Origin: an uncultured Caryophanales bacterium
GTDB taxonomy: Bacteria; Bacillota_I; Bacilli_A; RF39; UBA660
NCBI GenBank assembly: GCA_947164795.1
Contig: CAMUXV010000006.1
Location: 1-46,136 of the forward strand
Reading direction: 5' to 3'
DNA length: 46,136 nt
The position numbers were made by a program, and so were the translations under genes. Below the pieces are notes generated by a model, which was not told the DNA's origin, did not search any database, and worked only from the letters and a program-made list of their open reading frames with translations. Position 1 is the first letter of the stretch; the number at the start of each line of letters is the position of its first letter. This document shows, piece after piece, positions 1,943 through 32,475 of this stretch.

Positions 1943-3676
1943 TTAATTCTTGATTCTTTTAGAACCATTAATATTACATTTTGGACAACCATTTCCATTT
2001 GTACGATTATAAACAGCAGCTTGCCATTCATTACCACAGCAAGAACACTTCCACCATACCTTTTTACCACTACCGATAGTTAGAACATCTGGAGTCAATG
2101 GAAAGTTCTTCTCATAGTCCCATTCTTTTACTAAATCGGACCTTTTGATTAATAAATTATTTTTGTTATTAGTAGAATTTATGCGATTCATATCACCAAT
2201 ATGTTTATGTTTACAATCAAAACAATAATTGGTTTTTGCTTTTATCCTTGAACATACAGGCATTCTATAAGATAATCCGCAATTTTCACAAATCCACCAT
2301 ACATTTTTCCTACTACTATAATACAATTCAGATGGTAAAATTCCAACATTTTTTTCTTTGTCCCAATATTTCATCAAATTAGGAAATCTTTTTTCTAAAC
2401 TGTTAGTTTCATTAACTTTTTTGGCAGAACAATAAGGACAATTAATATATTCTATTTTTCTACCTATACTTGTTGTAAATGAACTACCACATTTTTTGCA
2501 CTTCCACCATACTTTTTTATTGGATCCAACTGAAAGGCTTTCTGGTAATAACCCATCATTTCTTTCATAATCCCACTCATCTAATAATTCAGGATAATAA
2601 ATAGTAAAATTATTATCTTTAATGATCTTAACATACTGATTGTAAATATTAATTTGATCTTTTTGAATATTAACACCATCAATTGTTATATTTAATAATC
2701 CTTGTATACATTTAATAACATGTTCCAAATAAATATAATCTCTATCAATAATGCAATAAATTACATTATTTTCTTTATCAATCAAGTTTTTATTTGATTC
2801 TTTTATATGATATAGCTTTATATTATTATTCTTTATAATTTCATTTTTCTTTTTTTCTTTTAATCTGCTTTTTTCATTTTCATGATAATATGAACCATCA
2901 TATTCAAATCCAACTTTATAATCTGGTAAAAATATATCTATTTCTTGTCCTTCAATTTTTTTACGGCTTTCTACTGTTGTAACTTTTGATAAATAATATA
3001 AAATTGCTTGTTCTGGAAATGAAGTACCATATTCAAAATAGCAATGAGGACATCCTGTTCCATTTGTTCTTTTAGATACACTTGCTTTCCACGTATGACC
3101 CAATGGACATTTCCACCAAACTTTTCTATTTGAACCAGCCATGAAATCACTTGGATTTATATCAGCATTCTTTTCATAATCCCAACTATCTAAAATTTCT
3201 GGATGTGTAGTTTCAATATCGTTCTCACCTTTAATAGCTTTTTGTCCTGTACAATAAATACATCCTGATCCTCCAGTTCTATTGCAAACTCTTGCCTGCC
3301 ATTCATGACCTTTTTTACATTTCCACCAAACAGTTTTTCCACTTCCGATAGTTACATCTTTTGGTGTTAAAGGTAAATTCTTCTCAATATCCCATTCATC
3401 AACTAAATCGGGTCTATTATCATATAATGATCCTCTTTTATTCAGTATAGATTTATTGTGATTAATTCCTATCTTCTTTAAACCACATTTTGGGCAACCA
3501 GTTCCTCCTCTTGTTCTACTCTTGGGTGATGCTTCCCACTCATTACCACATTCTAAACATTTCCACCAAATTTTTTTACTACTACCTGTAGTAATATCAT
3601 TTAAAAAAACACTTTGATTTTTATCAAAATCATACTCTTTTATAAGTTCTATATTATCTTTTAATAAGTTACTCAT
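1943..3676 (-). CDS. zinc-ribbon repeat protein with embedded PD-(D/E)XK (Vsr-like) nuclease domain
   Basis: This is a 577-residue mosaic. Six copies of a roughly 65-residue zinc-ribbon module (DUF4379-type, pattern WD.EKN...P.....GS.K.VWWKC..CG..W....R....GCP.C) surround one nuclease-like domain. Three ribbons precede it and three follow. The central block (about residues 220-300) contains FPEQAILYYL, EIDIFLPDYKVGFEYDG and a following basic stretch, the pattern of Vsr/DUF559-type PD-(D/E)XK endonucleases. DNA binding and cleavage is the likely role; this is inference from the fold. The gene is the last of a three-gene operon and overlaps the 3' end of the metallopeptidase gene. The start chosen is the ATG preceded by GAGGTG at 4-5 bases; the first ATG (3688) lies inside that ribosome site region. 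Confidence 0.82.
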   Translation of the reverse strand: MSNLLKDNIELIKEYDFDKNQSVFLNDITTGSSKKIWWKCLECGNEWEASPKSRTRGGTGCPKCGLKKIGINHNKSILNKRGSLYDNRPDLVDEWDIEKNLPLTPKDVTIGSGKTVWWKCKKGHEWQARVCNRTGGSGCIYCTGQKAIKGENDIETTHPEILDSWDYEKNADINPSDFMAGSNRKVWWKCPLGHTWKASVSKRTNGTGCPHCYFEYGTSFPEQAILYYLSKVTTVESRKKIEGQEIDIFLPDYKVGFEYDGSYYHENEKSRLKEKKKNEIIKNNNIKLYHIKESNKNLIDKENNVIYCIIDRDYIYLEHVIKCIQGLLNITIDGVNIQKDQINIYNQYVKIIKDNNFTIYYPELLDEWDYERNDGLLPESLSVGSNKKVWWKCKKCGSSFTTSIGRKIEYINCPYCSAKKVNETNSLEKRFPNLMKYWDKEKNVGILPSELYYSSRKNVWWICENCGLSYRMPVCSRIKAKTNYCFDCKHKHIGDMNRINSTNNKNNLLIKRSDLVKEWDYEKNFPLTPDVLTIGSGKKVWWKCSCCGNEWQAAVYNRTNGNGCPKCNINGSKRIKN

Positions 3677-4478
3677 ATGACACCTCATTATTTATTTTTT
3701 TAACTTCATCAAGTGTTATTTCTAGATTAATACTTTTTATAATATCTAATAATAAATTATATTTTGCTTTATCTTTTGGTAAATATTTATTTTTCTTAAA
3801 AAATATATAAAATTTTTTTAGATTACTACCCATAATTTTTTTAAGTTTATCAGGAACATATTTGAAATCTTTAAAATCGTCATAAAACAAATTTTCCCAT
3901 ACCATATATCGTGCAAGATAATGAGTAATTGTATATATTAACTCCACATGATTAGTTGAATCTATAACCTCTTCCAACATTTTATTTTTCTTTGGAACTT
4001 CTAAATTAATTAAATCTTCTTTATTTCCAAAAGCCATTGGTAAATATTTCCTATAGAATATGTAAGATTTTTTCTTAGCATTAAATTCTGTCCAGATATA
4101 AAAGGCATAGTATTCATTGCTTTTAAGCATCTCATCATAGTTACCATTAAAGAATAATTTACAATATTTATAAAAATCAACTGCATGTGTTAGTTCATGA
4201 TATACCGTACAAAAAAGCATATAATCTTTTCCAAAATTATCTAATTCTTTATTATCAATTAATATATTAAATGGTTCTTTAATATTTTTTGGAGGAATTA
4301 CAATACCATTATAATCATTATCTGTAAATCGTTGGTTTCTTCCATATTTTTCATTATACTTTTTATATTCTACAGATAAGTCATCAGTAAAAATCCAATT
4401 TATTTCTAAATCTTTATAAATGTTATTTTCAGTAAAAATAGATTTTTCAATTAATTTTATAATATATATAATATCCAA
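3669..4478 (-). CDS. putative zinc metallopeptidase (HELTH motif)
   Basis: This 269-residue protein has no confident family name. Its visible signature is the gluzincin-type zinc site YHELTHAVD (about residue 113), preceded by LFCTVYHE as in ImmA/IrrE-like and other short metallopeptidases. A downstream acidic, aromatic helix (NEYYAFYIWTEFNAK) could supply the third zinc ligand. No signal peptide or membrane segment is seen, so it should be cytosolic. Translation starts at TTG, supported by GGAGGT five bases upstream, 17 bp after the DnaA-like gene. It overlaps the nuclease mosaic by a few codons. An XRE-type regulator lies upstream, so an ImmR/ImmA-like anti-repressor pair is possible but not shown. 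Confidence 0.7.
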   Translation of the reverse strand: MDIIYIIKLIEKSIFTENNIYKDLEINWIFTDDLSVEYKKYNEKYGRNQRFTDNDYNGIVIPPKNIKEPFNILIDNKELDNFGKDYMLFCTVYHELTHAVDFYKYCKLFFNGNYDEMLKSNEYYAFYIWTEFNAKKKSYIFYRKYLPMAFGNKEDLINLEVPKKNKMLEEVIDSTNHVELIYTITHYLARYMVWENLFYDDFKDFKYVPDKLKKIMGSNLKKFYIFFKKNKYLPKDKAKYNLLLDIIKSINLEITLDEVKKINNEVSYE

Positions 4479-25843: not shown

Positions 25844-26704
25844 ATGAATGAAGTTGAAGTAATAGATGATATTAATATAAAAGATAAAATATACCAAGTA
25901 AGAGGAAAATTAGTTATATTAGATAGTGATTTAGGTAAATTATATAAATGTACTAATGGGACTAAGGATATTAATAAGGCGGTAAAAAGAAATAAAGAGA
26001 GATTCCCAGAAGAATTTTGCTTTCAGTTAACGAAAGAAGAATACCATGAAATTCTAAGGTTCCAATCTGGAACCTTAGAATTTAAACAAGGAAAGTATAG
26101 TAAATATCTTCCTTATGCCTTTACTGAATCTGGAGTAGCTATGTTATCTGGAATTTTACATACAGAAATAGCTATTAACACAAGCATACTAATCATGAAA
26201 GTTTTCGTAACTATGAAGAATTATTTATCTAATAGTTTGTTAGAGCAAAACTTTTATAGGAATATGTTATTAGATCACGATGATAGAATTAAGATATTGG
26301 AAAATAATTTTAATAATAAATCTTTTAGTAATGAAATATTTTTTGAAGGTCAAATATATGATGCCTACTCACTACTTTTAGATATACTTAACAGTTCAAA
26401 AGAAAGTATAATTATAATAGATAATTTTGCCAATAAAAAATTATTTGATTTACTATCTAAAACTAATAAAGTTGTAACTGTTTATAGTAAGATTTTTGAT
26501 AAAGAGTTAATAGATAAATATAATAAACAGTATAATAACGTTACTTTAATATATAATGATAGTTATCACGATAGATTTATAATTATAGATAAGAGAATAT
26601 TATATCACTGTGGTGCTTCGTTTAAGGATTTAGGCAAAAAATGTTTTTGCATTAGTAAAATAGACAATATAGAAATGGTTAATGAAATAATTAGTAAATT
26701 ATAA
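25844..26704 (+). CDS. ORF6N (KilA-N-like) domain protein with C-terminal PLD-like domain
   Basis: The 286-residue protein's N-terminal ORF6N domain (about residues 10-125) reads VRGKLVILDSDLGKLYKCTNGTKDINKAVKRN, FPEEFCFQLTKEEY, AFTESGVAMLSGIL and IMKVFVTMKNYL, as in phage antirepressor-type DNA-binding proteins. The C-terminal part (about 165-286) resembles a single phospholipase-D-like half-domain: SKESIIIIDNFANKKLFDLL and HDRFIIIDKRILYHCGASFKDLGKK, with the HxxxxxD-type core. This pairing is common in phage- and island-borne regulators. Role unknown; regulation by DNA binding is likely. GGGAGG precedes the start. It is divergent from the variable surface protein. Confidence 0.85.
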   Translation: MNEVEVIDDINIKDKIYQVRGKLVILDSDLGKLYKCTNGTKDINKAVKRNKERFPEEFCFQLTKEEYHEILRFQSGTLEFKQGKYSKYLPYAFTESGVAMLSGILHTEIAINTSILIMKVFVTMKNYLSNSLLEQNFYRNMLLDHDDRIKILENNFNNKSFSNEIFFEGQIYDAYSLLLDILNSSKESIIIIDNFANKKLFDLLSKTNKVVTVYSKIFDKELIDKYNKQYNNVTLIYNDSYHDRFIIIDKRILYHCGASFKDLGKKCFCISKIDNIEMVNEIISKL

Positions 26705-31215: not shown

Positions 31216-31290
31216 TTATTATTTTTGTAAAATTATCTATTAAAAAAATTAAAGAATTGATATGAACTACTCAAGTTTTATTCAACAACA

Positions 31291-32298
31291 TTAAACATTG
31301 ATATGCAGATTTAAATCCTCTTCTGTTGGTAATTTTTGTAATATATCTTTAGGGATATATTTATTAAGTTCATATGAAGATATTCCAATGGGTACATTTG
31401 TGCTTTTTAATGACCATTTTGCAGTTAATCTATCTTTACTTTTACATAGCAAAAGTCCTATTGTTTGATTATCAGTTTCTTTTTTTAAAGTTTCATTTAC
31501 CGCGGTTACATAGAATCCTAGTTGACCAATGTATTCTGGCTTAAATTCAGTTGTTTTGAGTTCTATAACAATATAACATCTTAAATCTAAATGATAAAAT
31601 AATAAATCTATATAATAATCATTATTTTCAGTGCTAATTTTATACTGATTACCTACAAATGAGAATCCTTTTCCTAATTCAATTAATACATCTTTAATTT
31701 TATTTATCATAGCTACTTCTAATTCCTTTTCCTTGTAATTTTCTTTTAATGTTAAAAAATCAAATATGTATGGATCTTTTATAGTATTATTTGCCAAATC
31801 GCTATTAATATCTGGTAAAGACATTTTAAAATTGTTTGAACTATTTCCTATTCTCAAATGAAAATTAGATTCTATTTGCATAACTAACATATCCCTACTC
31901 CAGCCATTCTTAATAGTAGCTTCTGCGTATATTTTTCTTATTTTATTATCTTTTATTTTACTCATTAATACAATATTATGTCTCCATGGAAGTTGTGCAA
32001 CGATGCGTTGCACAAGTTCATCATCTTTATATTCAAGATAAAACTTCTTCATATATTTTAGATTTCTAACAGAAAATCCTTCAGTATTTGGAAATTCAAG
32101 TCTTAATTCGCGAGATATATCATCAATAAATTTATTACCATATTTATAGTTATCATTTAATATTTTACCCAACTTAAAATAAAGATTAATTAAACTTTTA
32201 TTTGTTTCTATTGCAACTTTAATTTGAGTAGTTCTAATTTCATTTTTAATACTATTAATTATACTTCTAAAATCTTCTTTTGCTTTTTCTTCTAACAT
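31291..32298 (-). CDS. DUF1016/YhcG-family PD-(D/E)XK nuclease
   Basis: The 335-residue protein's N-terminal helical DUF1016 half (KVAIETNKSLINLYFKLGKIL, LRLEFPNTEGFSVRNLKYMKKFYLEY, LVQRIVAQLPWRHNIVLMSKI) is followed by the nuclease half. IYDFLTL-like DPYIFDFLTLKENYKEKELE, GKGFSFVGNQYKI and YYIDLLFYHLDLRCYIVIELKTTEF give the D...ExK catalytic set. Members are frequent in mobile and defence-associated regions; the substrate is presumably DNA. The start is the ATG with AGAAGGAGG eight bases upstream; the track start 12 codons earlier lies in the terminator hairpin. Expression is probably set by the leader described at 32323-32440. Confidence 0.92.
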   Translation of the reverse strand: MLEEKAKEDFRSIINSIKNEIRTTQIKVAIETNKSLINLYFKLGKILNDNYKYGNKFIDDISRELRLEFPNTEGFSVRNLKYMKKFYLEYKDDELVQRIVAQLPWRHNIVLMSKIKDNKIRKIYAEATIKNGWSRDMLVMQIESNFHLRIGNSSNNFKMSLPDINSDLANNTIKDPYIFDFLTLKENYKEKELEVAMINKIKDVLIELGKGFSFVGNQYKISTENNDYYIDLLFYHLDLRCYIVIELKTTEFKPEYIGQLGFYVTAVNETLKKETDNQTIGLLLCKSKDRLTAKWSLKSTNVPIGISSYELNKYIPKDILQKLPTEEDLNLHINV

Positions 32299-32322
32299 AT
32301 TATTTTTCCTCCTTCTATAATC

Positions 32323-32354
32323 AAAAAGAGACACTTATCTTAAATAAGCATCTC
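32323..32354 (-). terminator. intrinsic terminator inside the DUF1016 leader
   Basis: GAGATGCTTAT / ATAAGTGTCTC (11 bp with two G-U), loop TTAAG, then TTTTTGA. Confidence 0.75.
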
Positions 32355-32440
32355 CGCATCATGCATATTTCTATTTTGCCTCTAGAAATATACCTTATCG
32401 ATCTGATTGTTATATAAATATCAGGCAACCTTTTTTATAC
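32323..32440 (-). ncRNA. structured leader / candidate sRNA with intrinsic terminator ahead of the DUF1016 gene
   Basis: From the minus-strand promoter the RNA would contain CTGAT/ATCAG, a 9-bp hairpin ATATTTCTA/TAGAAATAT with a nine-base loop, and an 11-bp terminator hairpin followed by five U. The loop's GGCAA can pair with UUGCC near the 5' end (pseudoknot). The terminator ends seven bases before the nuclease gene's AGAAGGAGG. Two G-U pairs make the terminator stem complete only on the minus-strand RNA. Either a riboswitch-like attenuator or a stand-alone RNA. Confidence 0.55.
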
Positions 32441-32446
32441 AATTTA

Positions 32447-32475
32447 ATTATACTAAAAAGATATTTGAATTTCAA
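32447..32475 (-). promoter_or_regulatory. promoter of the DUF1016 leader RNA
   Basis: TTGAAA, 17 bases, perfect TATAAT on the minus strand. It lies about 40 bp downstream of the UDG gene stop. Confidence 0.7.

Follow-up and report, generated by a model that had tools for sequence, protein, structure and literature searches.

A conserved RNA leader ahead of many unrelated toxin-like and candidate defense genes in a lineage of uncultured gut Bacilli

The 46,136-nt stretch of DNA studied here (the window; contig CAMUXV010000006.1 of assembly GCA_947164795.1, positions 1 to 46,136) comes from an uncultured Caryophanales bacterium of the GTDB lineage RF39, UBA660. On its minus strand, from 32475 to 32323, a promoter, a structured leader RNA and an intrinsic terminator stand ahead of a gene for a DUF1016/YhcG PDDEXK nuclease. 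Sequence comparison places this leader in a conserved RNA family that has no Rfam match and that precedes many toxin-like and candidate defense genes as a movable leader; its regulated release of those genes and its role in defense are hypotheses. We lean toward reading the leader as a portable transcription attenuator, which would keep the gene behind it nearly silent and permit read-through upon a shared signal.

The decisive evidence that the RNA in the window is real is its conservation in relatives, to which the original prediction had looked for confirmation. Long BLASTN matches outside the window’s genome were found at 96% (L003), 85% (L004) and 72% (L005) in a search of 60 genomes, and L005 carries a compensatory change in the helix formed between two loops (UUGUC with GACAA). 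A first covariance model, made from four sequences and run on 291 genomes of the window’s family, gave 63 copies scoring at least 37 bits in 45 genomes, with several copies per genome in some; weaker matches, for example PPDK-coding sequence, were not counted. Sixty-two copies were then aligned with MAFFT without reference to structure. They derive from 69 hits of the first model, from which we dropped L071-L075, among which were three PPDK-coding false positives, L029, which a contig end truncates, and the shortened L063. In this alignment 88.3% of cells were paired, double changes occurred at 29 of 33 pairs, and there were 196 double-change cells against a shuffled mean of 63 (sd 11). None of the shuffles reached any of five measures, and sliding the partners by 1–3 columns left pairing at only 36–57%. 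A second alignment of 34 rows, comprising the window and 33 previously unused copies, certain of which are closely related to the first set, was also positive.

All three hairpins that had been predicted from the window alone are found at their places. P1 (32412–32440) joins GTATAAA (32440-32434) to TTTATAT (32418-32412) in 7 pairs, GUAUAAA/UUUAUAU in the RNA, and holds UUGCC in its loop; in the 62-copy alignment 90.0% of its cells were paired and 6 of 7 pairs showed double changes. P2 (32363–32393) has 11 pairs (32393-32383 with 32373-32363), every one of which changed on both sides in that alignment. The third is the terminator (32323–32355; stem 32355-32327 plus a U-run to 32323), with 91.7% of cells paired and double changes in 8 of 10 pairs. 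A pseudoknot had also been proposed, and its two strands, TTGCC at 32428-32424 and GGCAA at 32380-32376, are indeed complementary, but the second lies in a hairpin loop, so the contact is one of kissing loops. Covariation supports it in both alignments: 98.4% paired with both sides changed in 4 of 5 pairs among the 62 copies, and 100% paired with both sides changed in 3 of 5 pairs among the 34 rows.

Unpaired parts of the leader are conserved as well. The joining strand between P1 and P2 (32394–32411) reads AACAAUCAGAUCGAUAAG in the window and GACAAUUU..CGAUAA in most copies, and a core adjoining the terminator, AUGAUGCGG in the window (32354–32362), takes the form CATGATGCG, CATGCTGCG, CATGCATGCG or ATCTATTCG in most. 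In the family alignment, columns A34, A36, C41, G42 and T44 vary little or not at all. Core variants are coupled across copies (CGAU/GAUG, CGCU/GCUG, CGACU/GCAUG and CGAUAAUU/UCUAUUCG, with exceptions), which suggests a tertiary contact, although no pairing could be resolved. The window RNA has a fold z-score of -3.44, with none of 200 dinucleotide shuffles as stable, and six copies range from -3.44 to -4.85. The leader is one unrepeated domain, with no tandem RNA units in the family alignments. At the gathering threshold, Rfam 15 returned only tRNAs for the window and 20 loci and did not match abiF (RF03085); under permissive settings, the window and L005 yielded chance-level matches only. 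Weinberg et al. reportedly described in 2017 RNA motifs named COG3943, COG2827 and DUF3800 near accessory genes, one of these being the RhuM family, and those motifs are said to be included in Rfam.

What stands behind the leader is diverse. We merged 123 hits into 104 records and, with stricter de-duplication, 96 non-redundant copies. In 90 of these, the gene directly downstream, in the same orientation, belongs to one of ten unrelated families: ORF6N (43 copies), RhuM or RhuM-Fic (18), DUF1016 (8), KilA-N (6), Bro or Bro-N (5), DinD (3), an unnamed family whose representative has no Pfam or NCBIfam match (3), metallophosphoesterase (2), PBECR3 (1) and ToxN (1). The other six comprise four copies with no recognized gene, one (L102) whose downstream DNA extends for just 186 nt and one (L143) followed by an ORF that could not be assigned. 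For protein searches, eight of the 104 records had no ORF by the rule applied, and removing three duplicates from the remaining 96 left 93 proteins (set A8). Pfam found ORF6N in 44 of them, RhuM in 17, Fic in 12, Bro-N in 8, YhcG_C in 7, KilA-N in 6, and ToxN (2.3e-35) and PBECR3 in 1 each; DinD was assigned by NCBIfam (3.9e-100). In PADLOC, a PDC-S05 model matched 56 of the 93 and PDC-S23 models matched 17, and a 99%-identical relative of the window’s nuclease (from L003) matched PDC-S02 at 7.9e-130. PDC stands for phage defense candidate, as described in PMC11514479 and PMC13356809, and denotes candidates rather than assayed systems. We regard the downstream set as toxin-like or candidate defense genes. 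By a length rule, 63 of 77 assessable downstream genes are intact; leader scores showed no clear difference by eye between intact and broken genes and were not used as evidence.

Several loci show unusual arrangements of these genes. L011 (1501-3153) contains a leader, the start fragment of an ORF6N gene, a complete KilA-N gene and then the rest of an ORF6N-like gene, so that one cassette gene appears to have been inserted in another. L056 (1948-4042) holds two leaders with nearly identical domains, each followed by an ORF6N gene, and L047 (2014-4682) holds two near-identical leaders, with ORF6N after one and no recognized gene after the other.

The leader’s sequence tracks the host genome and not the gene family. 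Leaders in the same host but ahead of different gene families had a mean identity of 0.770 (27 pairs), compared with 0.646 when hosts were shuffled (0 of 2000 shuffles as high). The effect of gene family was small, at 0.668 versus 0.648, with 20 of 1000 shuffles as high. Leader pairs up to 100% identical stand before unrelated genes; one genome has identical domains ahead of RhuM and ORF6N, and another has domains 92-94% identical ahead of DinD, Bro and DUF1016. Leaders also pass from one genome to another, since among 50 copies in hosts that carry several, just 19 had their nearest leader neighbor in the same host. Among 73 pairs with leader identity of at least 0.88 and different gene families, identity was 0.33-0.37 beyond -40, against a background of 0.31; within the promoter it was 0.40-0.68, and past the U-run 0.40-0.49. 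Similarity confined in this way to promoter and leader indicates that these two together are the shared unit. The DUF1016-family and ORF6N genes of L019 and L045, two loci of one genome, have both the leader and their first codons (MNELIEKE...) in common, as though one gene had replaced another beyond the start codon.

When 84,980 species genomes were scanned independently by pattern, 61 loci emerged; a second model confirmed 52 of them and did not confirm 9. The confirmed loci are labeled as Bacilli, Erysipelotrichaceae, Bacillales, Bacillota or Tenericutes metagenome-assembled genomes in 50 cases, as Actinomycetes in one and as Clostridia in one. On wider taxa, the second model found the leader in 26 of 288 genomes of the order, 8 of 395 of the class and 1 of 295 of the phylum (the window’s own), and no copy in these three samples lay outside the window’s own family. 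No copies were found by distant BLASTN in phage records and plasmids or by two strict patterns in viral contigs (0 matches); here as in the taxon samples, strict filters may miss divergent forms. A loose pattern picked out 120 stretches of viral contigs, and the 80 that were checked had no model match. Within these searches, the RNA family appears confined to one lineage of uncultured gut Bacilli.

The promoter and terminator make attenuation the best-supported account of the leader. In the window, the consensus promoter of the original prediction proved sound: it is of the sigma-70/A type (32447–32475), with TTGAAA at 32475-32470, a 17-nt spacer and TATAAT at 32452-32447, or 11 of 12 consensus letters. 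P1 begins 6 nt after the -10 element, and the predicted transcript start is at or near 32440. Across 95 copies the promoter logo shows TTG at -35, TG at -15/-14 and TATAAT at -12 to -7, and 87 of the 95 keep five or more of the six TATAAT letters; its fixed spacing to P1 places the transcript start at P1. The terminator region has a median of -16.35 kcal/mol, against roughly -4 for segments of similar length with their letters shuffled, and its U-runs are mostly of 8-10. Termination at the U-run is likely on these figures. The window’s own terminator stem contains the G-U pairs that had been noted, but 12-13 pairs in all and not 11. It is the sole terminator-like site in 4.5 kb, but since shuffling leads one to expect 0.5, its uniqueness alone proves little.

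Between terminator and gene the distance is short. As predicted, the U-run in the window ends at 32323, seven bases before the GAAGGAGG ribosome site, and no promoter-like site was found in the stretch between terminator and gene. The model match lies a median of 28 nt from the ORF start across copies, which leaves little room for a further promoter. Taken together, the leader promoter, the strong terminator and this lack of room argue, as far as sequence can, that the gene is reached mainly by read-through.

Under an attenuator, transcription from the leader promoter would start at P1, most transcripts would end at the terminator as a ~115-nt RNA, and the downstream gene would be expressed only through read-through. 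Less certainly, the kissing-loop domain may sense something common to all the downstream genes, and read-through would then rise when the gene product is needed. The thing sensed could be a small molecule, an RNA-binding protein of the host or the condition of RNA polymerase while the cell is infected by phage or its DNA is damaged. Conservation of the kissing loop and unpaired core before unrelated genes suggests a common host partner. Read-through may be controlled by direct action on RNA polymerase, protein binding or ligand-stabilized folding, or may be plain leakiness. A bolder form, in which one exchanged leader senses a single infection- or damage-linked signal and so arms at least ten unrelated effectors together, is possible, though we would sooner doubt it than adopt it.

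Terminator-type riboswitches and T-box leaders place a conserved 5' leader fold with an unpaired core ahead of an intrinsic terminator. The present leader resembles the former in its covarying 5' fold and conserved unpaired core and, as judged by sequence, in its upstream start and its terminator before the gene. Unlike riboswitches and T-box leaders, its downstream genes share no metabolic pathway, and the test applied revealed no antiterminator. In RNA-element processive antitermination (put, LoaP/dfn, EAR), a leader RNA alters RNA polymerase so that it passes terminators.

Several observations weigh against an attenuator with regulated release. Complementarity between the terminator’s 5' strand and the upstream domain was -5.3 kcal/mol, versus -5.8 for shuffled sequence; an antiterminator, for which the original prediction had recommended a search, was therefore not identified in the one simple form tried, which leaves a classic two-state riboswitch hypothetical. 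Termination and read-through are read from sequence, and regulated read-through is hypothetical. Four copies (L026, L039, L047:4559 and L063) have no recognized gene despite enough downstream DNA, L026 and L063 with lesions in the core and L039 and L047 with none, and of the 77 downstream genes that could be assessed, 14 are broken, so some leader copies may be non-functional. The defense label of the gene set is by association. Likeness among leaders of the same host could also stem from gene conversion or recent duplication. Finally, the leader was present at 2 of 30 DUF1016-type loci, 2 of 30 ORF6N loci and none of the 25 other ToxN loci examined; most homologs of the downstream genes thus lack it, which argues against an obligatory partnership.

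A passive module would need no sensing at all: the promoter and a constantly leaky terminator would simply hold a harmful gene low. The terminator is strong everywhere and no antiterminator was found, and holding toxin-like genes low has a use of its own. However, a terminator alone would do for this, and the kissing loop and conserved unpaired core would go unexplained. We consider such a module unlikely.

Two further alternatives, which we rate as improbable, give the RNA itself the active role. In the first, the RNA of about 115 nt would neutralize the downstream protein by binding it, as a type III-like antitoxin, with the terminator setting the ratio of RNA to toxin. ToxI, the antitoxin of type III ToxIN (Pfam PF13958), consists of short repeats in an array and is specific to ToxN. 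ToxIN also has an RNA and an intrinsic terminator ahead of the toxin gene, and ToxN is among the leader’s downstream genes. Yet a gene of the ToxN/CptN/TenpN type follows the leader in just 1 of 93 cases (ToxN), the leader itself has no short tandem repeats, and its sequence does not diversify with the toxin as in type III systems but follows the host, with up to fully identical copies before unrelated proteins.

The single toxIN locus with a leader, L049, bears directly on this. ToxN genes occur in 41 of 243 genomes of the window’s family. In 12 leader-free relatives, picked for good alignment, the order is ToxI repeats, terminator, ribosome site, toxN. L049 keeps an intact ToxI array (34 nt x 3.1), the only array seen beside a leader, and an intact ToxI terminator, both upstream of the leader, which sits between a -10 element and the toxN ribosome site. 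In a BLAST comparison with L351, 119 nt of L049 were unmatched, and the leader match covers 114 of them. With ToxI array and terminator intact and the leader an additional piece, the leader cannot simply be the ToxN antitoxin, and a dedicated antitoxin role is unlikely in general. It should be kept in mind that this is one locus and that relatives have a longer toxN reading frame. The toxIN comparison (L049:1526-2290 and L351-L375) shows an exact TATAAT directly ahead of the toxN ribosome site in 9 of the 12 aligned leader-free loci, which suggests a second promoter behind the ToxI terminator of leader-free toxIN loci.

The second of these alternatives is a trans-acting small RNA or selfish RNA element, which would act elsewhere or be mobile, its position being a landing site. 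With a promoter and a terminator of its own, the leader amounts to a complete small RNA gene, the extra DNA in L049 closely matches the transcribed unit, and the family is lineage-restricted and multi-copy in some genomes. Random insertion would not be expected to leave 90 of 96 copies directly before ten gene families in the same orientation; core lesions in two of the gene-less copies also speak against it, though the other two have none. The original prediction had considered a small RNA that guides or restrains the window’s nuclease. That is unlikely, since the same RNA stands before many unrelated genes, with a sequence that does not track the protein; the competing suggestion, attenuation of the nuclease gene, fares better, except that the leader is not private to DUF1016. 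Chance folding of AT-rich DNA, for which only the A-U richness of some hairpins could be cited, is refuted by covariation that greatly exceeds both controls in each of the two data sets and by the fold z-scores, and we give it virtually no credence.

The nearest described arrangement, by analogy, is RCd22-AbiF of Clostridioides difficile, which likewise has a promoter, a structured RNA of ~100-130 nt, an intrinsic terminator, a ribosome site and a toxic abortive-infection-type gene, and, like the window locus, no promoter between terminator and gene (PMC12373285). This shared order of parts favors an antitoxin. There, termination is strong, deletion of the RNA raised gene expression 17-fold, and RCd22 is described as both attenuating and binding its single toxin (PMC12373285). 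RCd22 (Rfam abiF, RF03085) has two copies of a hairpin motif and one bound protein family, AbiF/Abi_2 (PMC12373285), whereas our leader is a single kissing-loop domain ahead of many unrelated proteins. In Pseudomonas aeruginosa, AlpA frees lethal genes from behind intrinsic terminators by antitermination after DNA damage; unlike our leader, it recognizes DNA sites in promoters, and the abstract mentions no conserved kissing-loop RNA leader (PMC7969949). Candidate RNAs adjacent to ToxN were taken as ToxI by the authors of PMC8040213, whose main text, supplementary tables aside, does not mention ORF6N, RhuM, DUF1016 or KilA-N. We found no published description of this leader family in a search that most subscription papers lay beyond, and the family is apparently undescribed.

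At the window locus, the ribosome binding site as read from the sequence is AGAAGGAGG (32308–32316, minus strand), and the nuclease gene (31291–32298, minus strand; ATG at 32298) encodes 335 aa matching Pfam YhcG_C (3.7e-62) and DUF1016_N (4.9e-38). Among 11 same-genus genomes with mutS, the leader lies ahead of mutS in the window’s genome and in G010. In the nearest leader-free same-genus genome, homology returns at ~31255, at most 36 nt past the DUF1016 stop codon, which puts the right-hand border of the leader-plus-gene unit within 31255–31291 (minus strand). The left border is not clean because adjacent genes also differ. By this comparison the unit was gained or lost recently. The covariance model found only the copy at 32325-32440 in the window. 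Six kb away, an ORF6N gene (25844-26704, plus strand), a second member of the leader-associated set, has no such leader. Elsewhere, a minus-strand gene (1943-3688) encodes a 581-aa protein with repeated WWKC..CG..W zinc-ribbon-like units.

Known toxin-gene leaders such as ToxI and RCd22 are each tied to one protein family, whereas the leader described here is common to unrelated genes. Its sharing and exchange among them point to a common sensor or brake that could act on many defense genes at once. If the idea of a common trigger is true, the toxIN locus L049 would represent a switch fitted onto an existing toxin–antitoxin system, and toxIN with and without the leader offers a natural comparison of antitoxin and attenuator function. 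The covariance model could locate further such genes through the leader rather than the protein, and the leader provides a testable handle on how single-gene defense candidates are kept silent.
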